Translations under genes and position numbers: made by a program | Part shown: one piece after another, positions 1 to 52,041 of the stretch | Position numbering within the stretch: position 1 is the stretch's first letter | Layout: each line of letters starts with the position of its first letter | The notes under the pieces: model-generated | Told to the model about the DNA's origin: nothing | Seen by the model: only the letters and a program-made list of their open reading frames with translations | Database searches by the model: none | NCBI GenBank assembly: GCA_025765595.1 | Contig: JAIVFH010000007.1 | Location: forward strand, 372,001 to 436,000 | DNA: 64,000 nt | Source: Obelidium mucronatum | Taxonomy: Eukaryota; Chytridiomycota; Chytridiomycetes; Chytridiales; Chytriomycetaceae | Direction of reading: 5' to 3'

Positions 1-3000
1 GCAGGGACTAGCTTTCAGTGAGTCACTCTGAACATTGTCGGAATTTTTTGGACAGTGGTTCCAAATGAAGCTAAAAGTGGCACACAGCCATTGCTGCAAA
101 AAGAAAGGGTGGGCAGCAAACAGGAGACTTGCAGGAGCCTGTTGAGCACAGGAAATGACTTGACCACAGTGGAAGGATATCCTTCCAGTGCGGCACAGTC
201 GGAACCAAAACAGCCCACCAGCAGCTCAAAATGAAGCTAAAAGTGGCACAAAACCATCGCTGCAAACAGCAAGGGTGGGCAACAGATGGGCGACCTGAGG
301 GAGCAGGGACTAGCTTTCAGTGAGTCACTCTGAACATTGTCGGAATTTTTTGGACAGTGGTTCAAAATGAAGCTAAAAGTGGCACAAAACCATTGTTGCA
401 AAAAGCAAGGGTGGGCAACAGATGGGCGACCTGAGGGAGCAGGGACTAGCTTTCAGTGAGTCACTCTGAACATTGTCGGAATTTTTTGGACAGTGGTTCC
501 AAATGAAGCTAAAAGTGGCACAAAACCATTGCTGCAAAAAGCAAGGGTGGGCAACAGATGGGCGACCTGAGGGAGCAGGGACTAGCTTTCAGTGAGTCAC
601 TCTGAACATTGTCGGAATTTTTTGGACAGTGGTTCCAAATGAAGCTAAAAGTGGCACAAAACCATTGCTGCAAAAAGCAAGGGTGGGCAACAGATGGGCG
701 ACCTGAGGGAGCAGGGACTAGCTTTCAGTGAGTCACTCTGAACATTGTCGGAATTTTTTGGACAGTGGTTCCAAATGAAGCTAAAAGTGGCACAAAACCA
801 TTGCTGCAAAAAGCAAGGGTGGGCAACAGATGGGCGACCTGAGGGAGCAGGGACTAGCTTTCAGTGAGTCACTCTGAACATTGTCGGAATTTTTTGGACA
901 GTGGTTCCAAATGAAGCTAAAAGTGGCACAAAACCATTGCTGCAAAAAGCAAGGGTGGGCAACAGATGGGCGACCTGAGGGAGCAGGGACTAGCTTTCAG
1001 TGAGTCACTCTGAACATTGTCGGAATTTTTTGGACAGTGGTTCCAAATGAAGCTAAAAGTGGCACAAAACCATTGCTGCAAAAAGCAAGGGTGGGCAACA
1101 GATGGGCGACCTGAGGGAGCAGGGACTAGCTTTCAGTGAGTCACTCTGAACATTGTCGGAATTTTTTGGACAGTGGTTCCAAATGAAGCTAAAAGTGGCA
1201 CAAAACCATTGCTGCAAAAAGCAAGGGTGGGCAACAGATGGGCGACCTGAGGGAGCAGGGACTAGCTTTCAGTGAGTCACTCTGAACATTGTCGGAATTT
1301 TTTGGACAGTGGTTCCAAATGAAGCTAAAAGTGGCACAAAACCATTGCTGCAAAAAGCAAGGGTGGGCAACAGATGGGCGACCTGAGGGAGCAGGGACTA
1401 GCTTTCAGTGAGTCACTCTGAACATTGTCGGAATTTTTTGGACAGTGGTTCCAAATGAAGCTAAAAGTGGCACAAAACCATTGCTGCAAAAAGCAAGGGT
1501 GGGCAACAGATGGGCGACCTGAGGGAGCAGGGACTAGCTTTCAGTGAGTCACTCTGAACATTGTCGGAATTTTTTGGACAGTGGTTCCAAATGAAGCTAA
1601 AAGCCCCACAAAACCATTGCTACAAACAGCAAGGGTGGGCAACAGATGGGCGACCTGAGGGAGCAGGGACTAGCTTTCAGTGAGTCACTCTGAACATTGT
1701 CGGAATTTTTTGGACAGTGGTTCCAAATAAAGCTAAAAGTGGCACAAAACCATTGCTGCAAAAAGCAAGGGTGGGCAACAGATGGGCGACCTGAGGGAGC
1801 AGGGACTAGCTTTCAGTGAGTCACTCTGAACATTGTCGGAATTTTTTGGACAGTGGTTCCAAATGAAGCTAAAAGTGGCACAAAACCATTGCTGCAAAAA
1901 GCAAGGGTGGGCAACAGATGGGCGACCTGAGGGAGCAGGGACTAGCTTTCAGTGAGTCACTCTGAACATTGTCGGAATTTTTTGGACAGTGGTTCCAAAT
2001 GAAGCTAAAAGTGGCACAAAACCATTGCTGCAAACAGCAAGGGTGGCCAACAGATGGGCGACCTGAGGGAGCAGGGACTAGCTTTCAGTGAGTCACTCTG
2101 AACATTGTCGGAATTTTTTGGACAGTGGTTCCAAATGAAGCTAAAAGTGGCACAAAACCATTGCTGCAAACAGCAAGGGTGGCCAACAGATGGGCGACCT
2201 GAGGGAGCAGGGACTAGCTTTCAGTGAGTCACTCTGAACATTGTCGGAATTTTTTGGACAGTGGTTCCAAATGAAGCTAAAAGTGGCACAAAACCATTGC
2301 TGCAAAAAGCAAGGGTGGGCAACAGATGGGCGACCTGAGGGAGCAGGGACTAGCTTTCAGTGAGTCACTCTGAACATTGTCGGAATTTTTTGGACAGTGG
2401 TTCCAAATGAAGCTAAAAGTGGCACAAAACCATTGCTGCAAAAAGCAAGGGTGGGCAACAGATGGGCGACCTGAGGGAGCAGGGACTAGCTTTCAGTGAG
2501 TCACTCTGAACATTGTCGGAATTTTTTGGACAGTGGTTCCAAATGAAGCTAAAAGTGGCACAAAACCATTGCTGCAAAAAGCAAGGGTGGGCAGCAAACA
2601 GGAGACTTGCAGGAGCCTGTTGAACAAGGAAATGACTTGACCACAGTGGAAGGATATCCTTCCAGTGCGGCACAGTCGGAACCAAAACAGCCCACCAGCA
2701 GTTCAAAATGAAGCTAAAAGCCCCACAAAACCATTGCTGCAAACAGCAAGGGTGGGCAACAGATGGGCGACCTGAGGGAGCAGGGACTAGCTTTCAGTGA
2801 GTCACTCTGAACATTGTCGGAATTTTTTGGACAGTGGTTCCAAATAAAGCTAAAAGTGGCACAAAACCATTGCTGCAAAAAGCAAGGGTGGGCAACAGAT
2901 GGGCGACCTGAGGGAGCAGGGACTAGCTTTCAGTGAGTCACTCTGAACATTGTCGGAATTTTTTGGACAGTGGTTCCAAATGAAGCTAAAAGTGGCACAA

Positions 3001-6000
3001 AACCATTGCTGCAAAAAGCAAGGGTGGGCAGCAAACAGGAGACTTGCAGGAGCCTGTTGAACAAGGAAATGACTTGACCACAGTGGAAGGATATCCTTCC
3101 AGTGCGGCACAGTCGGAACCAAAACAGCCCACCAGCAGCTCAAAATGAAGCTAAAAGCCCCACAAAACCATTGCTGCAAACAGCAAGGGTGGGCAACAGA
3201 TGGGCGACCTGAGGGAGCAGGGACTAGCTTTCAGTGAGTCACTCTGAACATTGTCGGAATTTTTTGGACAGTGGTTCCAAATGAAGCTAAAAGTGGCACA
3301 AAACCATTGCTGCAAAAAGCAAGGGTGGGCAGCAAACAGGAGACTTGCAGGAGCCTGTTGAACAAGGAAATGACTTGACCACAGTGGAAGGATATCCTTC
3401 CAGTGCGGCACAGTCGGAACCAAAACAGCCCACCAGCAGTTCAAAATGAAGCTTAAAGCCCCACAAAACCATTGCTGCAAACAGCAAGGGTGGGCAACAG
3501 ATGGGCGACCTGAGGGAGCAGGGACTAGCTTTCAGTGAGTCACTCTGACCATTGTCGGAATTTTTTGGACAGTGGTTCAAAATGAAGCTAAAAGTGGCAC
3601 ACAGCCATTGCTGCAAAAAGCAAGGGTGGGCAGCAAACAGGAGACTTGCAGGAGCCTGTTGAGCACAGGAAATGACTTGACCACAGTGGAAGGATATCCT
3701 TCCAGTGCGGCACAGTCGGAACCAAAACAGCCCACCAGCAGTTCAAAATGAAGCTAAAAGCCCCACAAAATCATTGCTGCAAACAGCAAGGGTGGGCAAC
3801 AGATGGGCGACCTGAGGGAGCAGGGACTAGCTTTCAGTGAGTCACTCTGAACATTGTCGGAATTTTTTGGACAGTGGTTCCAAATGAAGCTAAAAGTGGC
3901 ACACAGCCATTGCTGCAAAAAGCAAGGGTTGGCAGCAAACAGGAGACTTGCAGGAGCCTGTTGAGCACAGGAAATGACTTGACCACAGTGGAAGGATATC
4001 CTTCCAGTGCGGCACAGTCGGAACCAAAACAGCCCACCAGCAGTTCAAAATGAAGCTTAAAGCCCCACAAAACCATTGCTGCAAACAGCAAGGGTGGGCA
4101 ACAGATGGGCGACCTGAGGGAGCAGGGACTAGCTTTCAGTGAGTCACTCTGACCATTGTCGGAATTTTTTGGACAGTGGTTCAAAATGAAGCTAAAAGTG
4201 GCACACAGCCATTGCTGCAAAAAGCAAGGGTGGGCAGCAAACAGGAGACTTGCAGGAGCCTGTTGAGCACAGGAAATGACTTGACCACAGTGGAAGGATA
4301 TCCTTCCAGTGCGGCACAGTCGGAACCAAAACAGCCCACCAGCAGTTCAAAATGAAGCTAAAAGCCCCACAAAATCATTGCTGCAAACAGCAAGGGTGGG
4401 CAACAGATGGGCGACCTGAGGGAGCAGGGACTAGCTTTCAGTGAGTCACTCTGAACATTGTCGGAATTTTTTGGACAGTGGTTCCAAATGAAGCTAAAAG
4501 TGGCACACAGCCATTGCTGCAAAAAGCAAGGGTTGGCAGTAAACAGGAGACTTGCAGGAGCCTGTTGAGCACAGGAAATGACTTGACCACAGTGGAAGGA
4601 TATCCTTCCAGTGCGGCACAGTCGGAACCAAAACAGCCCACCAGCAGTTCAAAATGAAGCTTAAAGCCCCACAAAACCATTGCTGCAAACAGCAAGGGTG
4701 GGCAACAGATGGGCGACCTGAGGGAGCAGGGACTAGCTTTCAGTGAGTCACTCTGACCATTGTCGGAATTTTTTGGACAGTGGTTCAAAATGAAGCTAAA
4801 AGTGGCACACAGCCATTGCTGCAAAAAGCAAGGGTGGGCAGCAAACAGGAGACTTGCAGGAGCCTGTTGAGCACAGGAAATGACTTGACCACAGTGGAAG
4901 GATATCCTTCCAGTGCGGCACAGTCGGAACCAAAACAGCCCACCAGCAGTTCAAAATGAAGCTAAAAGCCCCACAAAATCATTGCTGCAAACAGCAAGGG
5001 TGGGCAACAGATGGGCGACCTGAGGGAGCAGGGACTAGCTTTCAGTGAGTCACTCTGAACATTGTCGGAATTTTTTGGACAGTGGTTCCAAATGAAGCTA
5101 AAAGTGGCACACAGCCATTGCTGCAAAAAGCAAGGGTTGGCAGCAAACAGGAGACTTGCAGGAGCCTGTTGAGCACAGGAAATGACTTGACCACAGTGGA
5201 AGGATATCCTTCCAGTGCGGCACAGTCGGAACCAAAACAGCCCACCCGCAGTTCAAAATGAAGCTTAAAGCCCCACAAAACCATTGCTGCAAACAGCAAG
5301 GGTGGGCAACAGATGGGCGACCTGAGGGAGCAGGGACTAGCTTTCAGTGAGTCACTCTGAACATTGTCGGAATTTTTTGGACAGTGGTTCCAAATGAAGC
5401 TAAAAGTGGCACACAGCCATTGCTGCGAAAAGCAAGGGTGGGCAACAGATGGGCGACCTGACGGAGCAGGGACTAGCTTTCAGTGAGTCACTCTGAACAT
5501 TGTCGGAATTTTTTGGACAGAGGTTCAAAATGAAGCTAAACGTGGCACAAAACCATTGCTGCAAAAAGCAAGGGTTGGCAGTAAACAGGAGACTTGCAGG
5601 AGCCTGTTGAGCACAGGAAATGACTTGACCACAGTGGAAGGATATCCTTCCAGTGCGGCACAGTCGGAACCAAAACAGCCCACCAGCAGTTCAAAATGAA
5701 GCTAAAAGCCCCACAAAACCATTGCTACAAACAGCAAGGGTGGGCAACAGATGGGCGACCTGAGGGAGCAGGGACTAGCTTTCAGTGAGTCACTCTGAAC
5801 ATTGTCGGAATTTTTTGGACAGAGGTTCAAAATGAAGCTAAACGTGGCACAAAACCATTGCTGCAAAAAGCAAGGGTTGGCAGTAAACAGGAGACTTGCA
5901 GGAGCCTGTTGAGCACAGGAAATGACTTGACCACAGTGGAAGGATATCCTTCCAGTGCGGCACAGTCGGAACCAAAACAGCCCACCAGCAGCTCAAAATG

Positions 6001-9000
6001 AAGCTAAAAGCCCCACAAAATCATTGCTGCAAACAGCAAGGGTGGGCAACAGATGGGCGACCTGAGGGAGCAGGGACTAGCTTTCAGTGAGTCACTCTGA
6101 ACATTGTCGGAATTTTTTGGACAGTGGTTCCAAATGAAGCTAAAAGTGGCACACAGCCATTGCTGCAAAAAGCAAGGGTTGGCAGCAAACAGGAGACTTG
6201 CAGGAGCCTGTTGAGCACAGGAAATGACTTGACCACAGTGGAAGGATATCCTTCCAGTGCGGCACAGTCGGAACCAAAACAGCCCACCAGCAGTTCAAAA
6301 TGAAGCTAAAAGCCCCACAAAATCATTGCTGCAAACAGCAAGGGTGGGCAACAGATGGGCGACCTGAGGGAGCAGGGACTAGCTTTCAGTGAGTCACTCT
6401 GAACATTGTCGGAATTTTTTGGACAGTGGTTCCAAATGAAGCTAAAAGTGGCACACAGCCATTGCTGCAAAAGCAAGGGTTGGCAGCAAACAGGAGACTT
6501 GCAGGAGCCTGTTGAGCACAGGAAATGACTTGACCACAGTGGAAGGATATCCTTCCAGTGCGGCACAGTCGGAACCAAAACAGCCCACCAGCAGCTCAAA
6601 ATGAAGCTAAAAGCCCCACAAAATCATTGCTGCAAACAGCAAGGGTGGGCAACAGATGGGCGACCTGAGGGAGCAGGGACTAGCTTTCAGTGAGTCACTC
6701 TGAACATTGTCGGAATTTTTTGGACAGTGGTTCCAAATGAAGCTAAAAGTGGCACACAGCCATTGCTGCAAAAAGCAAGGGTTGGCAGCAAACAGGAGAC
6801 TTGCAGGAGCCTGTTGAGCACAGGAAATGACTTGACCACAGTGGAAGGATATCCTTCCAGTGCGGCACAGTCGGAACCAAAACAGCCCACCAGCAGTTCA
6901 AAATGAAGCTTAAAGCCCCACAAAACCATTGCTGCAAACAGCAAGGGTGGGCAACAGATGGGCGACCTGAGGGAGCAGGGACTAGCTTTCAGTGAGTCAC
7001 TCTGACCATTGTCGGAATTTTTTGGACAGTGGTTCAAAATGAAGCTAAAAGTGGCACACAGCCATTGCTGCAAAAAGCAAGGGTGGGCAGCAAACAGGAG
7101 ACTTGCAGGAGCCTGTTGAGCACAGGAAATGACTTGACCACAGTGGAAGGATATCCTTCCAGTGCGGCACAGTCGGAACCAAAACAGCCCACCAGCAGTT
7201 CAAAATAAAGCTAAAAGTGGCAGGGACTAGCTTTCAGTGAGTCACTCTGAACATTGTCGGAATTTTTTGGACAGTGGTTCCAAATGAAGCTAAAAGTGGC
7301 ACACAGCCATTGCTGCAAAAAGCAAGGGTTGGCAGCAAACAGGAGACTTGCAGGAGCCTGTTGAGCACAGGAAATGACTTGACCACAGCGGAAGGATATC
7401 CTTCCAGTGCGGCACAGTCGGAACCAAAACAGCCCACCAGCAGTTCAAAATGAAGCTTAAAGCCCCACAAAACCATTGCTGCAAACAGCAAGGGTGGGCA
7501 ACAGATGGGCGACCTGAGGGAGCAGGGACTAGCTTTCATTGAGTCACTCTGACCATTGTCGGAATTTTTTGGACAGTGGTTCAAAATGAAGCTAAAAGTG
7601 GCACACAGCCATTGCTGCAAAAAGCAAGGGTGGGCAGCAAACAGGAGACTTGCAGGAGCCTGTTGAGCACAGGAAATGACTTGACCACAGTGGAAGGATA
7701 TCCTTCCAGTGCGGCACAGTCGGAACCAAAACAGCCCACCAGCAGTTCAAAATGAAGCTAAAAGCCCCACAAAATCATTGCTGCAAACAGCAAGGGTGGG
7801 CAACAGATGGGCGACCTGAGGGAGCAGGGACTAGCTTTCAGTGAGTCACTCTGAACATTGTCGGAATTTTTTGGACAGTGGTTCCAAATGAAGCTAAAAG
7901 TGGCACACAGCCATTGCTGCAAAAAGCAAGGGTTGGCAGCAAACAGGAGACTTGCAGGAGCCTGTTGAGCACAGGAAATGACTTGACCACAGTGGAAGGA
8001 TATCCTTCCAGTGCGGCACAGTCGGAACCAAAACAGCCCACCAGCAGCTCAAAATGAAGCTAAAAGCCCCACAAAACGATTGCTGCAAACAGCAAGGGTG
8101 GGCAACAGATGGGCGACCTGAGGGAGCAGGGACTAGCTTTCAGTGAGTCACTCTGAACATTGTCGGAATTTTTTGGACAGTGGTTCCAAATAAAGCTAAA
8201 AGTGGCACAAAACCATTGCTGCGAAAAGCAAGGGTGGGCAACAGATGGGCGACCTGAGGGAGCAGGGACTAGCTTTCAGTGAGTCACTCTGAACATTGTC
8301 GGAATTTTTTGGACAGTGGTTCCAAATGAAGCTAAAAGTGGCACACAGCCATTGCTGCGAAAAGCAAGGGTGGGCAACAGATGGGCGACCTGACGGAGCA
8401 GGGACTAGCTTTCAGTGAGTCACTCTGAACATTGTCGGAATTTTTTGGACAGAGGTTCAAAATGAAGCTAAACGTGGCACAAAACCATTGCTGCAAAAAG
8501 CAAGGGTTGGCAGTAAACAGGAGACTTGCAGGAGCCTGTTGAGCACAGGAAATGACTTGACCACAGTGGAAGGATATCCTTCCAGTGCGGCACAGTCGGA
8601 ACCAAAACAGCCCACCAGCAGCTCAAAATGAAGCTAAAAGCCCCACAAAACCATTGCTGCAAAGAGCAAGGGTGGGCAACAGATGGGCGACCTGAGGGAG
8701 CAGGGACTAGCTTTCAGTGAGTCACTCTGAACATTGTCGGAATTTTTTGGACAGTGGTTCCAAATAAAGCTAAAAGTGGCACAAAACCATTGCTGCGAAA
8801 AGCAAGGGTGGGCAACAGATGGGCGACCTGAGGGAGCAGGGACTAGCTTTCAGTGAGTCACTCTGAACATTGTCGGAATTTTTTGGACAGTGGTTCCAAA
8901 TAAAGCTAAAAGTGGCACAAAACCATTGCTGCGAAAAGCAAGGGTGGGCAACAGATGGGCGACCTGAGGGAGCAGGGACTAGCTTTCAGTGAGTCACTCT

Positions 9001-9770
9001 GAACATTGTCGGAATTTTTTGGACAGTGGTTCCAAATGAAGCTAAAAGTGGCACACAGCCATTGCTGCGAAAAGCAAGGGTGGGCAACAGATGGGCGACC
9101 TGACGGAGCAGGGACTAGCTTTCAGTGAGTCACTCTGAACATTGTCGGAATTTTTTGGACAGAGGTTCAAAATGAAGCTAAACGTGGCACAAAACCATTG
9201 CTGCAAAAAGCAAGGGTTGGCAGTAAACAGGAGACTTGCAGGAGCCTGTTGAGCACAGGAAATGACTTGACCACAGTGGAAGGATATCCTTCCAGTGCGG
9301 CACAGTCGGAACCAAAACAGCCCACCAGCAGTTCAAAATGAAGCTAAAAGCCCCACAAAACCATTGCTACAAACAGCAAGGGTGGGCAACAGATGGGCGA
9401 CCTGAGGGAGCAGGGACTAGCTTTCAGTGAGTCACTCTGAACATTGTCGGAATTTTTTGGACAGAGGTTCAAAATGAAGCTAAACGTGGCACAAAACCAT
9501 TGCTGCAAAAAGCAAGGGTTGGCAGTAAACAGGAGACTTGCAGGAGCCTGTTGAGCACAGGAAATGACTTGACCACAGTGGAAGGATATCCTTCCAGTGC
9601 GGCACAGTCGGAACCAAAACAGCCCACCAGCAGTTCAAAATGAAGCTTAAAGCCCCACAAAACCATTGCTGCAAACAGCAAGGGTGGGCAACAGATGGGC
9701 GACCTGAGGGAGCAGGGACTAGCTTTCAGTGAGTCACTCTGAACATTGTCGGAATTTTTTGGACAGTGGT
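1..9770. repeat. Satellite array of 136-bp and 301/302-bp units
   Basis: Head-to-tail tandem repeat reaching the left edge, so its true length is unknown. One 302-bp unit (1-302) is followed by sixteen 136-bp units (303-2478), then a mixture of 136-bp and 301/302-bp units to about 9770, where the last unit breaks off after the block ending gacagtggtt. The long unit is the short unit plus about 166 bp, inserted so that the stretch from aatgaagctaaaag to caagggtggg occurs twice. The insert carries a perfect 18-bp palindrome, TGGAAGGATATCCTTCCA. Variants (cacaaaacc/cacacagcc, gggtggg/gggttgg, aaaag/cgaaaag) move between units in blocks, as expected from unequal exchange. Long stop-free frames on the minus strand repeat with the unit and are not counted as genes. 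It could be a centromeric, subtelomeric or heterochromatic satellite; which one cannot be decided here. Confidence 0.97.
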
Positions 9771-10736
9771 TAAAATTCAATTAAAGCAAAGCACCAAAAA
9801 GTTGCACTTTTCCGTTCATGGACAATCTGTCACAATATTCCCATACAAGTCAGTCGGGCAGAGTCGGGTTCTTGGTTTGTTAAAAAAAAACAAAGTAGTG
9901 GCAAGGGCCAACATCCCACTCTGTACACAATACCAACGCCCGCAAATTGCATGTGACTGAGTCATGAACAGACTGCCAAAATACCACTTGCAGATCTTGC
10001 TGGGTCAAACTGCCGAACTCTACAGGCACCGGTAATATGCCAAAATTATGAAAGTGAATCAAATGCTACCCAGGATTCAATGAAGGTATAGTTTTGAACA
10101 GGTTACAAATAAAGAAACTCTCAGTGCATTTTATTTTTCATAATGTGATTTGTATGTTGAAATTCATGTTTCAAGATTCCCTTTCTTTCTTATACTGGAC
10201 CTCTTTTTCAAAAATCAAAAGGAGATCAAATTCGGGGGCCGAATGGAAGTTGGCTTTGGAAATAAACAGAAACCTTCGGGCACCTGTTCATCCTGCCCAA
10301 TATGCATCATAAAAGGCATGTCACTGACAGGACTTTTTGCCACCTGTATATCGTGTCCGTCATCGGCGATCGATTCCGGTTCCCCATACTTGAATCGTAC
10401 CAAAAACAAGATATCATAAAGACATCTTTTACTTGTGCCCTACTTTCACCCGTTCCAAACGATCTTATCTGTCCCACCAACGTTACCTAACTGAGCTCCA
10501 CACAATCGATGTTTCCACAATAGCTCATGTTGACAGTCGGAGGTGTTTGTCCCACGACTTCTTCCAGGAGAGACTGTTCAAATGCCGACAAAGGTTATCG
10601 AGAGTAGTGCGGGAATGTGAACTTTGTGGCTCCCGTAACAAATTGATCCTTGTGTTGCGTTGCTTAAAGTTGTCTTCTTATAAGAGCGAATGTTACCTAT
10701 TTTCTTTTTTTTTTGGGAAATCAACCTTTCTTTGAC
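9771..10736. other. Unassigned stretch between satellite and first gene
   Basis: No complete gene is recognised. The minus strand from about 10640 to 10215 has two neighbouring coding-looking stretches. One (about 10500-10620) reads as a soluble protein with a motif like LLEEVVGQTPP and is followed by an in-frame TAG. The other (10409-10215) is an open frame of 64 codons. A faint resemblance to an OB-fold (RPA32-like) protein is too weak to name. It may be a decayed gene or an unrecognised multi-exon gene. Directly beside the satellite the sequence is ordinary and AT-rich. Confidence 0.3.
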
Positions 10737-39585: not shown

Positions 39586-41728
39586 TCAAACAGATCCAAA
39601 ACTCTTTTCCACAGCCTTCTTCCACTCCTGAAACCTCTTGTTTCTCTCAGTTTCGTCAATGGTGTTCTCGAAAATCCTGACAGCGTCATTGCGTGGCGCG
39701 CCGGCCTGATTACCAAACACATCTTCATGATTCCAACAACCCCCAACACCCAAACCAGCAGCAATTGCAGCCCCAAATGCCGTAGTCTCTGCCATACTTG
39801 GTCTGAGAACAGGAATATTGAGGATATCAGCTTGCAACTGCATACAAAGGTCTGAGGCCGTGAGACCCCCATCAACCTTGAGTTTTCGAATGGGTGTGCT
39901 TGCCGACTTGTTCATCATGTCAACAATCTGCGCCAAATAAGAAAAAAAACTCCCGTGTTAAAACCCCCAACCACTTGCAAGAATTCCCAACAGTCGTTTT
40001 TTTTTTTACCTCTTTGGTTTGCCAGCAAACAGATTCTAAAGTAGCGCGACAAATATGCGCCTTGTTACTATATTGCGTCAGTCCAATGATGCATCTGTCA
40101 GCGCGAGATATATTACATTAGGGGTGGGTGACAACACAGCAGAAGGGAAACCACTCACCCTCTCGCATCGTCTCTCCAATAGGGTGCATAAAGGCCGCTA
40201 AACGCTGGAACAAAGTAAACACCGCCCGTGTCTTCAACTTGGCCAGCAATAACTCCCACCTCCGCCGCACTGCTAATCAAACCCAAGTTATCCCGTAACC
40301 AACGAACAGCAGCGCCAGCAACGGCTATTGAACCTTCCAGCGCGTAAATCGGATGATCTTTGGGACCCAATTGATAAGCAACTGTGGTAAGTAGTCCTGA
40401 TTCTGGCGGCGGGATTACCATTTCCTGGCCAGTGTTGAAGAGCATGAAGCAGCCTGTTCCATAAGTGTTTTTAAGGTCCCCAGGGTGTGTACAACGTTGT
40501 CCGAGAAGAGCTCCTTGTTGATCTCCAATGCACTGTTTGGGTTCCCTTTTTCGTTTAGCTTCTTCCCCCTTTTGTAATCCAGGCCAAAACATTACCCCGC
40601 TGATTGGAATACCCGCAAACGGCCCATTCTTGATGAATCCATATACTTCAGAAGACGTTTTAATAACTGGTAGATTGACTTTTTCAAACCCAAAGAATCT
40701 AGACATGGATGGGGAGTGAGTAAGAGCGTGAGTGAGTAAGTTAGTGAGTGACTATTAGTCCTTCTTCGAAACAGCATTTTATAATCACCTTATTATTTCA
40801 GGGTCCCAGTCAAGAGTCTTCAAATTCATGAGCATGGTTCTACTTGCATTCGTCACGTCAGTCGCATGGATTCCACCATCAGGACCACCCGTCAAGGTCT
40901 AAAAAAAAAAAAAAGTTAATTGAATTAGGGGGTTATTTTTTTTTTTACACAACGTTAAAAAAAAGGAGAGTTTGTCGCTTTTTACATAAATAAGCCAGGA
41001 ATCAACAGTCCCAAACATCAATCGCCCTTCCTCATACGCAAGTCGAACGTTTGAATCATTATCAAGAAGCCATCGAAGCTTTACTGCACTAAAGTAAGTT
41101 GAAATTGGAAGACCGCAAATGTTCTGTTTTTTTTTTTTTTTTTGTAGTGTCAAAATTATCCCAAAACGTCATTTGAAAAAAAATATAATAATACCTGAAA
41201 ATGATGTTTCGACTTTGAAGGGGTTTTAGCAATTAAAGATGCAACGGTTTCTCGTGTACGAGTATCGAGCCACACTAAAAAATGGCAGAAATCAAATCTT
41301 GCACTCTGATTCTCCAAAAAAAAAAAAAAAATAGACGCACCCACTGCATCGCAAAGAGGAAGGCCAGAAACTTTATCCCAAACAACTGTAGTTTCTCGTT
41401 GATTTGTGATTCCCACTGCTGAGATGCGATTCTTGATTGTTGACGCTGAAGCCCCCGCAACCACTTTATCGATACAGCGATTCACTGAATCCGAAATCAT
41501 TGTTGCATTCATTTGAGACCATCTGGAACCAAAAAAAATTGGAAAAGAGGGAGGGGGGATGTTTAATTTTTAAAGGTCCGAATTGTGTTGACGATTCAAC
41601 ACAAACCCGGCATGCAAGTTGATTTGCTCGACTTCTTCCTGGTGGATTGCGAGTGGCGTTCCTTGGCTATCGAATATGATAACTCTTGAAGAAGAGGTTC
41701 CTTGGTCGATTGCAGCCACCAAAGCCAT
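39586..41728 (-). CDS. GUT1: Glycerol kinase
   Basis: Multi-exon FGGY kinase converting glycerol to sn-glycerol 3-phosphate with ATP. The start ([22 protein letters not shown] 41728) carries the ATP-binding DQGTSSSR motif. Following exons give [83 protein letters not shown] and the C-terminal [18 protein letters not shown] (FGGY signature region). Introns have GT..AG ends; several contain poly-A/T runs (for example near 41320 and 41130). The gene appears complete and intact, about 520 residues. It shares its strand with CRN copy 2, which begins 23 bp downstream of its stop. Confidence 0.95.
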
Positions 41729-41906
41729 TTTTTTTATTCTTGTTTTATTTATTTATACTATTTTTAATATTTATCAATTTAATAAAACATTATTGTTTCA
41801 ATTTTTAAAACATGACATTACTAGAAGAATATACGTTGCAATCATGTATTTATTTTTACCACCTTAGATCATCATCAATGAAAAATTTCTCCATTGGCCC
41901 CCCCTC

Positions 41907-44427
41907 TCAAACATTGCACAGATTGAGCTTGTGAAGTGCTTCATCAAGCATCGCTTCAATAGCTACAAAAATGTAAAAAAATAAAGTTAAAAAAAAAGCA
42001 AATTATAAAATAAGAGAAAAAAAAAAGAATGGTTACCTGGTGTAGTGTGATAATGGTTATGATCTGGACATTCCTGTGTCCATGGAAGCGTGATATCAAA
42101 AGAATTCATAATCTTCATCCCCTTCCGACGAAACACCTTCTCAGCATATCCAGACCAAACTTTAAACCGATAGTTGGTACGCCAGTCCAACTCCACAGCG
42201 TGACCACTTTTTTTATCAGGCGTCATGAAAAAAGCAACGTTGCCCAACCACGTAAACTCGATTGGCTTCTTGTTTTTCAAGTGTCGACGAGAGTTTATCC
42301 ATTGCAAGAAACTAACGACAGATTCTAGAACGTCCACGTATCGCTCCGTGTTGAAGTGACCGCCTCGAAGGAATCCAGCGGCAGGCCAATGTCCGAAATC
42401 GATAATCATTTTATCGTACTTAAAATATCCATTTCGGCTTCATCCATCTTTTGTTCGTCATTCCAGCCGCGGTAACTTGTGGTGTCCACGAATCGATTAA
42501 TGAATTCATAGTACTTGTACTCAATGTCTGTACTCTTGAGACCCTTGTACATTTGTGGAATCGCATCATCATCTCGTCGCCCCGCCTTTTCCAAGTCGAG
42601 ACCCAAGACTGGGGAAGCGTTTGGATGGGCCTTCAAGTCTTGGGGATTGAAAAACTTGCTTTGAATGTGAAAGTACTTGATGTTTCTGGGGACACCGCCG
42701 AGGGATCCACCCAAACGATCCGAGAGGCCCATTGTCAAAACTCTGGTGTGTGAGTCTCCGAAGATGCCCACGAATTGTGATTGCTTGGAGTGGCATGAGG
42801 AATTGGAGTGTTCTTCGAATCGTTGATCGAATCGGCATCCGAGGGGTTCCCTGTATATGTGAGTTTTTTTAGTTGAAGGGTAAGAGAAGAGGGGAAGTAC
42901 GCCGAAGGCGGAAGAGGCCGAAGGCGTTTGATAGAAAAAGCTGAAAAAGAAACACCGCCTTCGGCGGTAGAGACCCGCCTTTGGCGGTAGAAAAAGCTGA
43001 AAAAAGAAACACCGCCTTCGGCGGTAGGGATCCGCCTTCGGCGGTAGAAAGCTGAAAGAAGAAACACCGCCTTCGGCGGTAGGATCCGCCTTTAACGGTA
43101 GAAAAAGCTGAAAAAAGAAACACCGCCTTCGGCGGTAGGGCCCGCCTTTGGCGGTAGAAAAAGCTGAAAAAAGAAACACCGCCTTCGGCGGTAGGATCCG
43201 CCTTCGGCGGGATACAGAAAAAACACCGCCTTCGGCGGTAGAGACCCGCCTTCGGCGGAGAGACACCGCCTTCGGCGGTAGGATCCGCCTTCGGCGGTAA
43301 AAAAAACCGAAAAAGAAACACCGCCTTCGGCGGTAGGGACCCGCCTTCGGCGGGATACAGAAAAAAACACCGCCTTCGGCGGTAGAGACCCGCCTTCGGC
43401 GGAGAGACACCGCCTTCGGCGGTAGGAACCCGCCTTCGGCGGATTTCGGCAAAAGTACAAACCAAGTATAAGGATGACCAAAAGCCTTCATTCTAGCAAC
43501 TTCTCTGGGAGTTTCCTCGGTCATTCTGAGATAAACGCCTTGTTGAGGCTCGGTTCTTGAACAAAGAGGCAAAGAGGGATTAATCTCGAGTTCCAACTTT
43601 TTAGCAGTAAAAGGAGAACAATGATGTTGGCAAACATCAAGTTGCGTATCATCAGGAAGCAAAGGTTTAAACAGCGGATTGTGCCAGCCCTCCATGACTT
43701 CATTGACGGCGAGAAACGAGTCGTGGACATGAAACAGCTTCACTTTGAAGAGACCCGGGTTAGTGAGACGGAAGGAGAGCTTGTATTCGCAGTTGCCCAG
43801 GTGTTTCCACATGCTCGAGCTCGCGCGCTCGGGCCCGTCAAACAGCACGTGGAACGAGTCCGGACCCAGCTGGTTCTTGAAGTACGCATCGAGTTCGGGC
43901 GACAGCGACAGGGTCTGGTCGAAGGCGCGCGCACACTTTGCCTTGTCAGTGCGGCTGATTGCAAAGTAGCCCTGGCCGCAGAAGCGCCGCGACTCGCACA
44001 GCCGCACTTCGAAGTCGCCGGCGAGCGCCGCCAGCGGCCGGCAGTTTGCGCCAAAGTCCTTCGCCGCCTGCATGCGCGCGTCGAACGCCTCCCAGCGCGG
44101 ACACTCTTTCGCGGCGCCGTCGGCGTCGGGCTCGGGCTCGGCCTGGTGCGCCGTCGAGTCGACCACCGCCGGCGCCCGCACGTCCGGCTTGAGCGGCGGC
44201 AGCTCGTCGGTGTCGGTGTCTACGGCGGCGTGCGTCGTCTGCGGCGCTGTCTGCAGCCCCGGCTCCGTCTGCGCCTGCGGCTGCAGGTGGTGCGGGCTCA
44301 GCTCCTGGCGGCCGCTCGCAAGGAAAAACATTGGCACCAGCGACAGGCTGAAGATCACGGCAATTGCAAGCCCTAGCGTGCGCAGCGGGGACGCAGAACC
44401 CAGTATTGGCTTTGCGTTCAACGTCAT
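41907..44427 (-). CDS. Type II membrane protein with SGNH/PC-esterase-like domain
   Basis: Four exons (44427-43463, 42850-42490, 42418-42037, 41962-41907) join in phase to 587 residues. A single N-terminal membrane anchor (LGLAIAVIFSLSLVPMFFLA) and a Pro/Ala/Gln-rich stalk suggest a Golgi-lumen enzyme. The luminal part has FVGIFGDSHTRVL (GDS block with the candidate catalytic Ser) and, near the end, MIIDFGHWP and CPDHNHYHT (candidate Asp-x-x-His). This is the layout of PC-esterase/NXPE/TBL-like acyl-transferases or esterases acting on glycans; the substrate is unknown. Intron 42851-43462 (612 nt) is about ten times longer than its neighbours because it is filled by hairpin repeats, and it happens to be stop-free and a multiple of three. 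The stalk (43800-44330) is very GC-rich. Confidence 0.75.
42900..43442. repeat. Array of double-hairpin elements inside an intron
   Basis: Ten tandem pairs of short hairpins between 42953 and 43442. Each hairpin is ACCGCCTTCGGCGGT or a close variant, able to fold with a C(UUCG)G loop on the plus strand; the two members of a pair are separated by about 4-6 nt (such as agagac or aggat). The first pairs are spaced about 55 bp apart by a near-constant A-rich linker (aaaaagctgaaaaaagaaac). Some members have compensated or loop changes (cctttggcgg), others lose pairing (cctttaacgg). Two degenerate copies in opposite orientation lie at 42900-42926. The form matches double-hairpin elements known from mitochondrial DNA of Allomyces and other lower fungi; here the array sits in nuclear DNA. 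Confidence 0.92.
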
Positions 44428-44599
44428 GGAGAAAAATTTATCTACACTGTAAAACAGCAAAAAAAAAACAAGTTTGTTGGTTTCAGTGCGCCTCAATCAA
44501 ATAATTATACTACTGTTTGAACATTGTTTTCAATCTTTTAGTTGCGAGTGAATGCAAAGGCAATAACTTTATTCCCTCGTTTTTCTTTTCCAATTCACA

Positions 44600-45841
44600 G
44601 CACCTACAACTATACATCACATTTCATCCACATTTGTCCCATCCACTGAAAGAGTCAATTGTGAATAACTCACTGGTATTGATCCACACAAGCTCGGATT
44701 GTTATCCACCAGAAACTCAAAACTTACGAGACTTTCATCAAATTCTGGCAGTCTTCCAGAAAGATTGTTGCACCTCAAATCCAATTTCTCCAGTCTTGGC
44801 ATTTCATGAAAATTGGGAATCTCGCCTGTTGGGCCGTTTGCAAGAAAAGTCCAGAATCTCCAAATTGAAACACCCGCCAAACTGAGGAATACCGCCGAAG
44901 GCGGTTTGTCTTTCTTTATTCTGAGGAATACCGCCGAAGGCGGTGTGTCTTTCTTTAAGTGTCTTTCATTATTGCCCTCTCTATCACCGAGTCTTTACTC
45001 AACTTCTCTTCACTGACCCACCCACAACTAAACATCACATTACATTTCATCCACATTTGTCCCATCCACTGAAAGAGTCAATTGTGAATAACTCACTGGT
45101 ATTGATCCACACAAGCTCGGATTGTTATCCACCAGAAACTCAAAACTTACGAGACTTTCATCAAATTCTGGCAGTCTTCCAGAAAGATTGTTGCACCTCA
45201 AATCCAATTTCTCCAGTCTTGGCATTTCATGAAAATTGGGAATCTCGCCTGTTGGGCCGTTTGCAAGAAAAGTCCAGAATCTCCAAATTGAAACACCCGC
45301 CAAACTGAGGAATACCGCCGAAGGCGGTTTGTCTTTCTTTATTCTGAGGAATACCGCCGAAGGCGGTGTGTCTTTCTTTAAGTCTTTCTTTATTGCCCTC
45401 TCTATCGCCATGTCTTTACTCAACTTCTCTTCACTGACCCACCCACAACGATACATCACATCACATTTCATCCACATTTGTCCCATCCACTGAAAGAGCC
45501 AATTGTGAATAACTCGCTGGTATTGATCCACTCAACTTTGGATTGTTATCCACCAGAAACTCAAAACTTACGAGACTTTCATCAAATTCTGGCAGTCTTC
45601 CAGAAAGATTGTTGCACCTCAAATCCAATTTCTCCAGTCTTGGCATTTCATGAAAATTGGGAATCTCGCCTGTTAGGCTATTGCAAGAGAGGTCCAAAAT
45701 CTCTTAATTGAAACACCCGCCAAACTGAGGAATACCGCCGAAGGCGGTGTGTCTTTCTTTAAGTCTTTCTTTATTGCCCTCTCTATCGCCATGTCTTTAC
45801 TCAACTTCTCTTCACTGACCCACCCACAACGATACATCACA
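44600..45841 (-). repeat. Three truncated tandem copies of the LRR gene 3' end
   Basis: The last 90 codons of the LRR gene (45842-46115) plus about 100 bp of its 3' flank recur at about 45461-45733, 45040-45313 and 44617-44890 with few differences. Each copy keeps the stop codon side and is cut at the same base, just after gaggaata, where the intact gene continues with ggtccc. At the cut the hairpin ACCGCCGAAGGCGGT begins (45734-45748; 45314-45328 plus 45353-45367; 44891-44905 plus 44930-44944). The copies lack promoters and starts, so they are non-functional remnants. Confidence 0.92.
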
Positions 45842-47385
45842 TCACATTTCATCCACATTTGTCCCATCCACTGAAAGAGCCAATTGTGAATAACTCGCTG
45901 GTATTGATCCACTCAACTTTGGATTGTTATCCACCAGAAACTCAAAACTTACGAGACTTTCATCAAATTCTGGCAGTTTTCCAGAAAGATTGTTGCACCT
46001 CAAGTCCAATTTCTCCAGTCTTGGCATTTCATGAAAATTGGGAATCTCGCCTGTTAGGCTATTGCAAGAGAGGTCCAGAATCTCCAAATTGAAACACCCG
46101 CCAAACTGAGGAATAGGTCCCACCAACTCATTGGATGAAAGATTAAACTTTTCCAGTTTCCAATGGCTTCCAAATTCTATCGGAATCGTTCCAGTGAGTT
46201 TGTTATGCGACAAGTCAAATACGAAAAAGTGTCCTGCGACTGTCGCAAATTCATTAGGAATCGAGCCAGTCAGCTGATTATTATTCAACCGAAGATGCTC
46301 CATTTTGTGCCAAGGATGCCCTTTAACCAGCGTATCTGGAATCTCCCCAGTCAACTTATTAAACGAAAGATCAAGTTCACCCAGTCCTGCAATCAGTCCC
46401 AACTCAGCAGGAATCATCCCGTCGATTTCAAAATTACTTCCAAGATTCAAAGTTTCAAGACTTCGAAGTTCATGTCCCCATTCTGCTGGGATCGGCCCCG
46501 ATAGTTTGTTGAAGGACAAATCCAACACCTCCAAGTTGGAAACACCAGTCAACTTTGGCAACGCCCCAGAAAACCCGTTATGACTCAAATTCAATATGAT
46601 AAGCATGGAAAAGTTGATAAAGTCGGGAATGCAACCATACAGCTGATTATGCTGCAATTCAAGCAGTCTGAGAGTGGGCCGTTCATTCAAGCCATTGATT
46701 AAGGGCGGAAGCTCTCCCGTAAAATTGTTTTCACCCAGCTTAATTCGAATTTGGAGTTCCATAATCCAGCAGAGATGGGACCCGTCAACCGGTTGTTGGA
46801 CAAGTCCACATACTCTGCTTTCTGCAAGACTGCTTTTGGAATGCCTCCAATCAATTGATTGCATGACAAATTCAAGTCAAATATCTCAGGCCAGACCAGG
46901 GGAATCGGACCACCAAATCCGCAGTCTTGCAAGTTGACGTGACGTAAGGCCAAGTCACTCAACCATGGCGGCAGCACGGTGACACCGCCGTCACCAACCT
47001 TACCAAACTTTTGATTTTTAAACGATAGCACTCGAAGAGCCTTGAGTCTTGCGACTGCGGGCGATAGCACAGGCCTAGGTTGAGAATACCCATCTAGTCT
47101 GAGCGCCGTTACACTCTCATGATCTTTGAGGTACGTGGTCAGATAAACTTGCTGGTAAGATTCAGGCCAGTTCAGCCAATCATAGTCTGCTCGGCTGTTT
47201 TGGAGGACTACTTGGCCTTGTCTTGTTGTTTCAATATAACAAGCCAAGTTCCGAACAGCAAACGAATGGGACACGAGGATGTCTCTGATTGTGGAGCAAG
47301 TGGCTTGATATTTGTGTACTTTGTGGGGCGGGATCCATTGGAGGATGGCTGTGATGAGCTCAAGCGGAAGTGCACTCTCCACCAT
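45842..47385 (-). pseudogene. F-box-like/LRR protein gene with one frameshift
   Basis: The N-terminus from ATG 47385 (LPLELITAILQWIPPHKVHKY) looks like an F-box helix pair. It is followed by plant-type LRRs (LSCNQLIGGIP, VDLSNNRLTGPI). At about 46755-46770 the frame changes without a usable intron, then continues through about ten LRRs (LELQHNQLYGCIP, LNLSHNGFSGALP, LDLSFNKLTGEIP, LRLNNNQLTGSIP) to the stop at 45842. Total span 1544 bp. The break may be a real inactivating indel or a sequence error, because both halves are otherwise clean. An F-box/LRR protein would act as an SCF adaptor; the GxIP-type repeats are of the plant receptor style also seen in chytrids and amoebae. Confidence 0.75.
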
Positions 47386-47504
47386 TATTGAAGATATTAC
47401 TCACTGGATTTTAAAAAAAAACAGCACAATACTTTATTGCTTTTCATCTTATTAAAAAACATGGCTTTCTTTCCATCATACCGCCTTTAATTTATTTGTA
47501 GTCA

Positions 47505-48851
47505 TTAAAGGTTTCGAAGATCATTGTCACCCATCCACATTGGAAACCGTTTCAAGTTACACTCCAAAAACCAAGGAACCGAAACAATACTTGTATCATT
47601 GATTTCCGAAATGGGCTTAATTCTATCCTTGAACATCTTGATCCAGTCCTCGGACATCTCCGTTTCCAATTGAAACACATTGGAGCTCAAGAAACTGTTT
47701 CTCCAACGAAGTAAAAGGTCATTGTTGAGACCACACTCGGAACAACTGATTCTCTTGAGCATTTGGTAAGGAAGGTACCCATAATTCGTTAAATGCGCTC
47801 CACCTAGCAAAAATCTCCCAGAGTGACCTCTCAAACGGCCCGGGAACTTATTTTCCTTCTTTTCATACTCAATCGCATCCTTGAACTTGAAAAAAGTGGG
47901 ATCCCCAAGAGAGTAAGGATGACCCGCGACAGGAAAGTCAGTCGCAAACGCATCTGGCAATCGCCCCATTGTAAACCAGATCCCAATATCCACAGGACTT
48001 GCCTTCAACACACAGTTCTTGAGCAATCGAATATTTCTGAGACTTGGGATTTCATCAACGTCTCCAAAGGCAATCAAATCCTCGTCTCCATAGTATTTAG
48101 TTTTCAAATTCCATGACTTGATTGCATCCCACCGTGCTTGTTCTTGATGCCATTCATGCCCGAACGTGGACGTGTCCTTTTCGTGGCCAGGTTTCCCCGC
48201 AGTGAAAGCCGTCGAGTCGTCATCGACAATATGAATGACTTGGTTTGCAAACTTTTTGAAACGGGGGGTTGCCTTGAGCATTTCCCAGACAAGCGGCTTC
48301 CGGATCTTGTGGTGCTGCGCAACCATTGACTCGAGGAGGAAAATATGGTCAAAGGCCGTGTGGTACTGGTGCAGGGCGATTTCGAGGTTGTCCACGTCAA
48401 AGGCAAATTGCAATGCAATCGACATCCGGCGAGGTGTTTTGGCAGGCGTTGGTTCGAAAATGTCTGGGTAGTCTGAGCATCGCAGATCGTCTTCGTGCAT
48501 TGCCGGCTCGAGGCAGGTTTCGCTGGCTGGGACAGCGGGGTCTTTGGCAACGTGGGGAACAAGAAGCTCAATCAAGTCGGCAATGTGTTCGTCAATCTCC
48601 TTCTCGCTTCCCTTTTGGCCGGAAAGCGCAATAATGCTTTCTACTGGGAACTTGAGGTAGTCGGCTGAGAGGCTGGAATGGTTTGTGCCAGGGATGACTT
48701 GTATCAGGTGGTGGGACGCTTCGGGAACTGTTTTGGGGAGAAGGAAGAAGGTCGATCCCAGCAGCGTGCCAACGATGCATGCGATAATAATGACAGGCTT
48801 TCCGATGTAGGACGAGCGGCCGGTATCGTGCTCGACTTGAAACTGGAGCAT
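47505..48851 (-). CDS. GT17 family glycosyltransferase, type II membrane protein
   Basis: Single exon, 448 residues. An N-terminal anchor (VIIIACIVGTLLGSTFFLL, about residues 20-38) is followed by a stem and a catalytic domain: FDHIFLLESMVAQHHKIRKP, the acidic motif FGDVDEIPSL (DxD-type), and GGAHLTNYGYLP. This fits GT17 (beta-1,4-mannosyl-glycoprotein N-acetylglucosaminyltransferase, MGAT3-like). In animals the enzyme adds bisecting GlcNAc to N-glycans in the Golgi; fungal members exist with undefined acceptors. No introns. Intact. Confidence 0.85.
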   Translation of the reverse strand: MLQFQVEHDTGRSSYIGKPVIIIACIVGTLLGSTFFLLPKTVPEASHHLIQVIPGTNHSSLSADYLKFPVESIIALSGQKGSEKEIDEHIADLIELLVPHVAKDPAVPASETCLEPAMHEDDLRCSDYPDIFEPTPAKTPRRMSIALQFAFDVDNLEIALHQYHTAFDHIFLLESMVAQHHKIRKPLVWEMLKATPRFKKFANQVIHIVDDDSTAFTAGKPGHEKDTSTFGHEWHQEQARWDAIKSWNLKTKYYGDEDLIAFGDVDEIPSLRNIRLLKNCVLKASPVDIGIWFTMGRLPDAFATDFPVAGHPYSLGDPTFFKFKDAIEYEKKENKFPGRLRGHSGRFLLGGAHLTNYGYLPYQMLKRISCSECGLNNDLLLRWRNSFLSSNVFQLETEMSEDWIKMFKDRIKPISEINDTSIVSVPWFLECNLKRFPMWMGDNDLRNL

Positions 48852-49103
48852 GTTTCAATTCGAACAAGTATTTTTTTTTCAATTGAAACAGGCACATTAA
48901 AAAAACAATCCGTCAATATCCACCGTTTCATCTTTCGATGGGGTCAGAAACAATTCTTTGCGGAGTGTGGTCGCGGACGCCGAAAGGTTCCAACTGGAAT
49001 TTTTAGGAATCATCAAGATGATTCAGTGAATCATTAATGCTTTAAAGCTTTTATAACCTTCAATAACAACTACTACTACGACCCATTCAGTTATTTAGGC
49101 ATA

Positions 49104-50003
49104 TCACGCAGAAAGTAAACCATTCGTTGCACCCAAAACTTCACCAGGTGCAGCAGCCTTCTTGCTTCTGGAATAAACAACTCCACCAACAACAGCCAAC
49201 GCAACAACACCAACTATAGCAATTGCGGCGACCCCGGCAGTAGAAATAGAGGAGCTTGAAACTGGAGCAACTGCGCCCTCGCTCGCAGGAGCGGCAGCGG
49301 CATTGGCAGAGCTGCCAGTAGCAGCCTTGGTAGAAGAAGCACCAGAACTGCTGCTGCTACCGCTACCACTACCGCTGCTTCCACTATTGTTTTGAGCAGT
49401 GACACTGGTGCCCTTCACAGGAACTCCAATTGGAACACAGTTGGTGAACCCTGGAGACGCGAAGCAAGTGTATCCAGCTCCACAAGTAGTTGCCGTCACC
49501 CACCAAGGATCGTACGCGCACTGTCTAATGAATAACGAAAAAAAAATCAGTTCGATAACAAGCACCCCAAGCACCCAAAAGCACCCCTATGGAAAAGAAA
49601 GGGAAAACAGAGAGCAGATACTTACTGCAGTGTCTGCCCGTCGCATTGGTACGAGCCCCACTGGCCGTATGAGCATTCCTTGGCGCCCTTTGGCGGTGGT
49701 GGCTGACAGCCCACGCTTGCCGCTGGGTTGTTGAGAGCCGCATTGCAGGCATAGCCGACTGCGCCACAGTCGTTTTCTACAACCCAGGAATACTCGGCGG
49801 GTTCCACCTTGGTGCGATCGCATTGCCAAAGAACATTGGAGGAGTCGCAGCCACGGTTCCCAAACTCGGCAGCGCTGCAAGGGCCTGTGGAGAAGAATGT
49901 TGAGCAACATTGGTTTTTGGTGTCGGGTCTATGTTCGATGGGTACCGTGGGCAGATGCAAGCGTCGCTGCAGTGATCAAAAGGACGGCGACAGAGGTCTT
50001 CAT
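49104..50003 (-). CDS. Cell-surface Cys-rich CBM19-like protein with C-terminal membrane anchor
   Basis: Three exons (50003-49946, 49884-49626, 49524-49104) give 245 residues. Signal peptide MKTSVAVLLITAATLASA. Then two cysteine-rich modules; the second (YQCDGQTLQQCAYDPWWV then TCGAGYTC) has the same C-x-G-Q-x-LQQC spacing as the module in the chitinase at 18748-20177. A Ser/Gly/Ala linker leads to one membrane helix (VAAIAIVGVVALAVVGGVV) and a short basic tail, so it is likely displayed on the surface. CBM19-like domains bind chitin, so a wall-associated sensor or tether is a reasonable guess. Confidence 0.78.
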
Positions 50004-50237
50004 TTTTTCGTTCTTTTTTTTTCGCAGCTCAGACACAGCAACAACCCATTACAACCCATTAAAATTAGATGTAGATGGTCACGATCACTGCCATTATTAA
50101 CGTGATTCTTTTTTGTCAATTTGCTTCAATTTGTGTGTTCCTGGATTTTCCAAACTTGCCCGCCGGCCGACCCGCTTTCATAATATGTATGCCCACCACC
50201 CAACTTTTTTTTCGAGTAGTCAAAAGTAATCACCTCC

Positions 50238-51156
50238 ATGTACATTATGTCCTTCATTGCATTGGTGGTCACCTTCGGTATGCTCGCATTAGCGGGAGGA
50301 GGTCCAAGCCAAGATTTCGTGGCAGCCGAAAAAGTCACACACTTTACAAAACTCAGCCGCTACGCATTCATCAGTTACTATCCAGATTCAGAATCCATTA
50401 AAACATGGACATGCCTCCTCTGTAAAGACCCGTCCCTTTCAGGAACAACAAATATCATCACCACCGAATCAAAAGACAACTCCACACGAGGTTATGTGGC
50501 AGTAAATCCGGCTCTCAAGACAATTATTGTTTCTATTCGAGGAAGCGCGAGTGTTGAAGATTTTGTGGCAAACTTGAATATTCTTCAGCGGCCTTTGGCG
50601 GTTCCTGATGCGCCGTCAAATGCCTTGGTTCATGCCGGGTTTTCGGATCGATGGCAGTTATTGAGACCTTCAGTGACGGCTGCCTTGAACAGTGCGTTGA
50701 AACTTTATCCTAAATTTTCTGCCGCTTTCGTGGGTCATTCTCTTGGGGCTGCTGTTGATTTGGCTGTGTCTTTGCAAATACCAGCATCGCGAGTGCATAT
50801 CGTGAATATGGGGCAACCTAGAGTTGGGAACAAGGAGTTTGGGCTATACGTCAACAGTCGTGGTTTTGCTCAAGTGTCGAGGATTGTAAACTATAACGAC
50901 ATTGTTCCGCATTATGTGAGTCTCTTTTTAAATCTCTTGATTTTAAAGTGTTGTTGATTTCTTTTCATTCCCCATCAAGCCTCCGAGAGCCGCTGGATAC
51001 CAACAGCAGTCCACCGAATACTGGCTGAACCGTGAGGGCCGTCTTGTCAACTGCAAAGATAATGAAGGGGAAGATATAAATTGTTCCAATACTGTACGCG
51101 ACTTTTCAATTCCGAATCACTTTGTTTACTTTGGAATTGCAATTCCTGTGTTTTGA
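50238..51156 (+). CDS. Secreted class 3 lipase
   Basis: Exons 50238-50915 and 50980-51156 give 284 residues. A signal peptide (MSFIALVVTFGMLALAGGG) is followed by the alpha/beta-hydrolase core: YVAVNPALKTIIVSIRGS, the nucleophile elbow VGHSLGAAV, NYNDIVPHY (candidate Asp, interrupted by the intron right after it, next exon PPRAAGY) and a C-terminal His in NHFVYFG. This is the Rhizomucor-type lipase (PF01764) fold that cleaves triacylglycerols outside the cell. It is divergent from the surface CBM19-like gene (234 bp between starts). Confidence 0.92.
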
Positions 51157-52041
51157 AGCATGTTCATTTGGTGTTTTTATGATAGTATAAAGTGGGCCTT
51201 AACTTTGTGTCGCGTCTCATATCTGCCAATGCTCAGGCAATTGAGACAATTGTTTTTGTGTTTCATACGCCACTCCACCGTGAGATTTATTTATTTTTTC
51301 AACAGAACACCCCTGAAAAATCCCCACCATAACTTTGAGGGAAGATATTTATCTCGTGTATAATTCCTGACTTCCTTTTCCACTCAACTCTGCATTTCTC
51401 TTTTGCCACATATTTTTAATATCCCCCTTTGTCTCAGGTCCAAAGCACCGTCTCTTATCCTGCTGTCTGCTACTTTTCGAATTCATCTCGTTTTTCAAAT
51501 GCAAATTTCAAGGGAGAGGGTAGTTGTGAGGAACTTGCTGACTGTACACGCTGTTGTCGACATCAGGAGATCGGGTACCTGTGATCAAATACGTTAGAAT
51601 AAATAATTTTGTGTTTCAACGTATTCGAACTCTTCAAACGGGCCGAATGGCTCGCCTAGTCGTGTGACACGCATTTCAAATTCCCCAAATTAAAAATAAG
51701 CGTTCGAAACACACAAAAACACAGATTATAATTTGATGTGTTTTATTATAATTCCGTGCATTTTCTAATAAAATTATTGTATTATCTCTTTATCTCACAT
51801 GAGCTTGGAATCCAAATTGAATGTTGGGTTGGTATTACATTAAAAAAAGAAATAGACTCAAACTTCTGTCCTTTAATTGGTTGGATTTCAACATAATTTC
51901 AATTGCACTAAAAATATAGCGTATTTATTATTGGTAAATTTCATATGTGTCCTGATTGTTCGCAATATTGAAAAAAGAATCAAAAAACGTGATTTATTTG
52001 ATTAAAACGCGTAGAATGAAAGCATGAATAAACCACTTGTA
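51157..52041. other. AT-rich gene-free stretch
   Basis: About 885 bp with no supported gene. The region 51660-52020 is strongly AT-rich with long A and T runs. Short open frames on the plus strand at 51160-51600 have no motif. Confidence 0.5.

Follow-up and report, generated by a model that had tools for sequence, protein, structure and literature searches.

A nuclear family of small hairpin repeats in introns of the chytrid Obelidium mucronatum

Repeats that fold into hairpins have mostly been described from organelles and bacteria. In a 64,000-nucleotide stretch of the Obelidium mucronatum genome (the window), a spliceosomal intron of a nuclear-type gene is filled with short hairpins. Our reading, to which we give a probability of about 0.5, is that a nuclear hairpin repeat family multiplies inside existing introns under a structural constraint on the sense strand, with no need for a transposase. 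The system would allow one to test in nature whether repeats arise from single-stranded folding during transcription, and how introns of 50–90 nt grow tenfold yet still splice; for most of the predictions, the chytrid genomes already available and RNA-seq would suffice as a check. The original prediction, made from the sequence of the window, concerned the intron itself; three findings go beyond it, namely the GNA rule for the loop, the rule that ties the hairpin strand to that of the gene, and how many other arrays there are.

The hairpin-filled intron (Table 1) is in phase 2 and has the ends GTTTGT...ATACAG. The annotated host protein, P0001, splices it out, which joins HPYTW to EPLGCRF in the junction peptide; its 100%-identical match is BDR26DRAFT_915394 (the window lies on contig C7). 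A Siphonaria protein has the junction reading HPYTWEPLGCRF as well, differing by one change. The two other introns of the gene measure about 47 and 71 nt and lie 3' of the mapped exons. The length of 612 nt equals 3 x 204 nt and the coding frame is open throughout, so stop codons are uninformative, and splicing was deduced from the annotation, the paralogues and the proteins of relatives. The array was also considered as a coding insert, which was rejected because the annotated model removes it and it is absent from those proteins of relatives that were read. The gene had been predicted to encode an SGNH domain, which Pfam did not bear out, giving no family at E<=0.001 for the host ORF and only sub-threshold matches for P0001. 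Residues 1–60 of P0001 (window 44463-46027) form an LRR-like start that matches a duplicated region at four places, and the gene model may be a fusion. The translated array matched no protein at E<=0.01, in a search that also missed the species' own sequence, and the one match of Rfam in 42000-46500 (22.2 bits, gathering 60, E 0.22) is below threshold and was put down to chance.

Table 1. Positions in the window of the host exons, the intron and the hairpin arrays
Feature	Position	Strand	Basis
Intron, 612 nt	42851..43462	-	P0001 exon mapping, protein continuity, and position and phase common to five paralogous contigs
Exon upstream of intron	43463..44463	-	P0001 residues 25-358 map to 44463-43462
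Exon downstream of intron	42418..42850	-	P0001 residues 359-502 map to 42849-42418
Array of 20 hairpin cores, with GAA-type loops and T-rich linkers on the sense (minus) strand	42898..43443	-	
Second cluster, five exact hairpins in 423-bp tandem duplication	44891..45748	+ (GAA loop)	

With up to two mismatches, ACCGCCTTCGGCGGT occurs at 24 sites in the window against 0.07 expected; 19 of these lie in 42954-43443 and five in the second cluster. Cores of the form CGCCNNNGGCG with a TTC/GAA-type loop number 20 (42900-43441), 19 in one orientation and one in the other, and additional, degenerate hairpin copies are discernible beyond these. The prediction of a nuclear intron built from a tandemly amplified, hairpin-based array was upheld. 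Its description as ten double hairpins holds approximately: the core-to-core steps measure 19–20, 28–29, 35–37 and 56 nt, and twice four hairpins follow one another at intervals of about 20 nt. The linker, described as constant and A-rich, is A-rich on the plus strand but not constant. The second cluster lies within a tandem duplication of about 423/381 bp (44614-46115) beside an LRR gene.

Confinement of the motif to this locus had been named among the findings that would count against the prediction, and the genome-wide search returned thousands of copies instead. Exact CCGCCTTCGGCGG has 1,752 copies in 48.3 Mb, compared with about 0.6 by chance and three for the reversed pattern. Together with six other disjoint patterns (639, 232, 83, 1,231, 21 and 216 hairpins), the total is 4,174 hairpins against 70 for the reversed controls, a count that covers these seven stem and loop patterns. 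The 100 matches listed of the 1,752 to CCGCCTTCGGCGG form 19 clusters in 5.24 Mb, with 1–19 exact copies each, and the sequence around every one of these clusters was retrieved. Extrapolation gives about 175 clusters for the whole genome, which is probably an underestimate because the listed contigs have 19 exact copies per Mb versus 36 genome-wide.

The repeated unit is a palindrome of 13–15 nt with a 3-nt loop, and units are set apart by linkers that are T-rich on the sense strand (59% T in linkers of 11–60 nt, n = 103). Hairpins up to 150 nt apart have the same orientation in 223 of 233 neighbor pairs, and 20 nt is the commonest distance between cores (74 of 233). Tandem Repeats Finder detects 56-nt and other periods in the intron array, as expected if the arrays were ordinary intronic minisatellites without a structural rule. 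We consider this explanation quite improbable, since what different loci have in common is the hairpin, not the linker, and since the stems covary, also with once-per-locus counting, and the loops obey a rule, as described below.

Pairing had been predicted to be kept while the bases vary, and the outer stem pair behaves in this way. In hairpins with a TTC loop this pair is C-G in 1,752, both sides are changed in 639, only the right in 232 and only the left in 83; the 639 double changes compare with 11 expected under independence, and as array copies are related, these hairpin and covariation counts overstate the independent events. Among the 100 listed of the 639, by eye, 94 are Watson-Crick pairs, one is G-T and five are mismatched. 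When each end combination was counted once per locus at 19 loci, 62 of 87 combinations pair (shuffle mean 40.9) and compensated pairs that are not C-G number 15 (shuffle mean 3.7), and none of 5000 shuffles reached either observed value. The compensated non-C-G pairs stem from six loci (L012, L013, L017, L019, L020 and L021). Single-sided changes number 232 at the sense hairpin's 5' end and 83 at its 3' end.

The loop on the sense strand is almost always GNA closed by C-G (C-GNA-G), with GAA in 1,752 hairpins. With the same stem, the middle base of the loop is changed in 1,231 hairpins (among 100 listed, by eye, 86 GTA, 11 GCA and 3 GGA), the first base G in 216 (95 AAA among 100 listed) and the last base A in 21, which is near the reversed control of 9. 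The AAA loops show the pattern that a CpG C-to-T change on the opposite strand would give. C-GNA-G DNA mini-hairpins are described as extraordinarily stable in the portion of PMC4686876 consulted, and the special stability of the GNA strand is taken from that paper, not from computed energies; folding energies with standard parameters show no difference between the two hairpin strands, as DNA or as RNA. The d(GCGAAGC)-type hairpin shares with the Obelidium hairpins a GNA triloop closed by C-G on a G-C stem; it is an oligonucleotide structure, whereas the latter is a genomic repeat (PMC4686876, in part).

The main rival to our reading is functional RNA structure, in which the hairpins are kept by selection and compact long introns or bind a protein. 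The compensating stems fit such selection equally well, and the loop rule also speaks for it. The minimum-energy fold of the sense intron (z -8.3, 20 shuffles) places most of the array in one closed domain and keeps both intron ends out of it, namely the 5' splice site and the last stretch, as this rival would have it. However, a single closed domain finds no support in the centroid fold, and better folding than shuffles is seen for the antisense strand too (z -6.9). Taken with the paralogues and the turnover of arrays described below, we regard selection on RNA structure as unlikely, while still the strongest competitor.

The location of the arrays was assessed from the flanks of 23 of them, viewed by eye in the presumed sense orientation only and not blind, with four clusters outside this view. 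Plausible GT and AG sites with coding on both sides were seen in 18, a donor only in three (L015, L021, and L023 at 4239) and neither splice site in two (L009 at 3957 and L019 at 5708). Coding junctions were then scored on both strands by codon score, the hexamer coding score being too weak, for the clusters first listed and for L053, L056 and L057 from a similarity search; the 29 rows become 27 when three tandem copies at 44.9–45.7 kb are merged. The GNA strand agrees with gene sense in 21 rows, disagrees in three (window 44.9–45.7 kb, L009 at 5597 and L019 at 5706) and is undecided, within 1 unit, in three (L010, L012 at 4540 and L013 at 6279). The proportion of 21/24 gives p = 1.4e-4, the independent n being slightly lower with L053 and L057 near-identical. 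The exception in the window is the second cluster, in which GAA is on the plus strand and nearby coding on the minus strand. The introns that this scoring predicts were used for strand only; for the window, both the donor and the acceptor that it picked were wrong. Pfam backs the strand and the gene beside L012 (GH35), L017 (ABC transporter) and L016 (UBR1-like). The sampled arrays are mostly in introns, usually with the GNA strand as the sense strand.

The 16 arrays in which stop codons were counted, among them the related pairs L012/L058 and L053/L057, contain 88 in sense versus 230 in antisense and 250 in single-base shuffles. Because sense stop codons are few, tolerance of intron retention may be a cause of the strand rule. 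The sense-strand rule is also a point for selection on RNA structure, and the mostly sense orientation, together with dispersal across the genome, would suit a mobile element that moves via RNA, whether by reverse splicing or by reverse transcription, in the manner of introners or of the Allomyces elements, for which RNA intermediates are suggested in part of PMC2800124. This RNA route appears improbable: the position of the intron is ancestral at this locus, intron ends differ between loci by eye, and sharing outside the arrays consists of poly-A-like runs only in the one search inspected.

The age of the intron was evaluated from paralogues. Five paralogous contigs (C58, C278, C74, C562 and C17), whose junctions were read, carry an intron of about 55–92 nt at the same codon and phase; C278/C74 and C562/C17 are near-identical-looking pairs, so at least three distinct paralogous genes are represented. 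TTC/GAA-type cores are absent from the 5.5–7 kb around each of the five junctions, and C562 and C17 have one unrelated GC-rich core each. The position and phase are the same in hairpin-free paralogues, and therefore the array entered, or grew in, an existing intron; we infer entry into a short intron followed by local multiplication. That the same intron is spliced without hairpins in five contigs argues against selection on RNA structure.

The first 10 kb of contig C466 are 97–99% identical to window 41460-51540 and carry the same intron array, longer by a single A within an A run, and by its sequence C466 looks like the other haplotype. The short contigs C466, C582 and C412 resemble large ones as a second haplotype or a recent duplicate would, and parts of the assembly probably contain both haplotypes. 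As repeats are easily misassembled, an assembly artefact or contamination was weighed; it is very improbable, since the same array recurs in two contigs whose flanks have diverged, conserved fungal genes contain or adjoin the arrays, and the paired exact pattern has 0 matches in the viral and 0 in the prokaryotic collections.

These contigs also allow arrays to be compared between near-identical copies. The window intron array is the same in both haplotypes, with no turnover there, and the duplication at 44.9–45.7 kb has five exact hairpins in the window versus three in C466 (L044). In the part compared, C582 and C1:373–378 kb are identical over about 170 nt ahead of the array; their arrays are rearranged, and the matched stretch has a net 179 nt more in C582. 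Between C40 and C412, identity outside the array is mostly 84–100% per 100-nt block, with three indel blocks at 60–77%, compared with 26–89% in five hairpin blocks. In two of three near-identical locus pairs, arrays change much faster than their flanks, and such large differences between near-identical copies are a further point against selection on RNA structure. Among the loci compared there was no clean empty/filled site for a single hairpin. MITEs and other TIR transposons are marked by terminal inverted repeats and a target-site duplication at a single insertion; no common boundary of the arrays was visible by eye in the flanks.

Multiplication within existing introns could proceed as follows. 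After a hairpin had entered a short intron, the palindrome would fold in single-stranded DNA of the displaced (non-template) sense strand, or in the transcript, and slippage, template switching or hairpin-templated repair would duplicate it locally. Copying of one arm from the other would make the palindrome perfect again, so that compensated stems and the loop rule could arise even if the host gained nothing. Orientation would then be filtered by splicing or intron retention, the sense version, U-rich and with few stops, being better tolerated. The outcome would be a self-amplifying structural repeat that is tolerated in introns and needs no dedicated transposase. A narrower form, in which a selfish C-GNA-G mini-hairpin folds specifically on the displaced non-template strand, accumulates in sense in introns, which are transcribed but non-coding, re-perfects itself and lengthens introns without any enzyme, is put forward tentatively, as somewhat doubtful. 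A version acting through R-loops was not favored, by reasoning, as the linkers give U-rich RNA.

Bacterial REP/BIME sequences are short GC palindromes that occur in clusters and alternate between two spacings. The Obelidium arrays are like them in the clustered GC palindromes and alternating spacings, but the copies lie in eukaryotic introns and no Y1 transposase match accompanies them: PF01797 (RAYT/IS200-like) had 0 matches in the genome at E<=0.001, in a search that was positive in 5 of 14 controls. A PF01797 stretch in P0001 (14.5 bits, cut-off 23) was taken as chance.

Of the systems compared, the mitochondrial double-hairpin or repetitive hairpin-forming elements of Allomyces and sponges (PMC2800124, in part) work most alike. 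They too are short hairpins, single, paired or clustered, that are dispersed, lack coding capacity and have no known function, and their trait of two hairpins with a short linker is found in O. mucronatum, where the spacing peaks at 20 nt. The compartment differs: the contigs that carry the Obelidium arrays have spliceosomal introns and nuclear-type genes. Cox1 (PF00115) had no match in the assembly, so that the comparison covers the nuclear side. The Obelidium family is further distinguished by its intronic location, sense bias, GNA loop rule and compensated stems, whereas the sponge elements have conserved stems and variable loops (PMC2800124, in the portion seen). By analogy, the family resembles organellar double-hairpin elements, the type that the original prediction had named as its closest parallel, and membership is not claimed. 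Fusarium mitochondrial palindromes are mobile, optional between relatives and linked to indels, and passages of PMC7218506 compare them with mitochondrial hairpin elements; they are palindromic repeats as well, but mitochondrial, intergenic and, as far as the passages show, unrelated in sequence.

Introners, including the Amoebophrya type with inverted repeats, are likewise repeated intronic elements with inverted repeats able to form hairpins (PMC9860276 and PMC7789003, both in part). From the same partial texts, introners create introns, whereas the Obelidium intron is old by position and phase in paralogues, at this locus only. Introners share sequence up to the intron ends, and the ends differ by eye among the 23 arrays. 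In Amoebophrya, one inverted repeat pairs the intron ends, while the Obelidium intron has many small internal hairpins.

A survey of 118,019 genomes reports, across eukaryotic kingdoms, a higher density of inverted repeats in introns than in exons, and the word "chytrid" does not occur in its main text (PMC13155455). Our literature search, which returned partial texts, gave no description of nuclear intronic sense-oriented hairpin arrays; of four motif strings, one turned up in a single paper, an unrelated bacterial study, and the two papers that name O. mucronatum deal, by title and abstract, with a protein family.

Hairpins are also embedded in larger tandem units. On C56, hairpin arrays recur near 77, 84 and 91 kb at a spacing of about 7 kb, and on C62, near 107–109 kb, hairpins with GTC loops are partly about 357 nt apart. 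The window itself holds a 9.5-kb satellite-like array at 229-9776, with periods of 136 and 302 bp.
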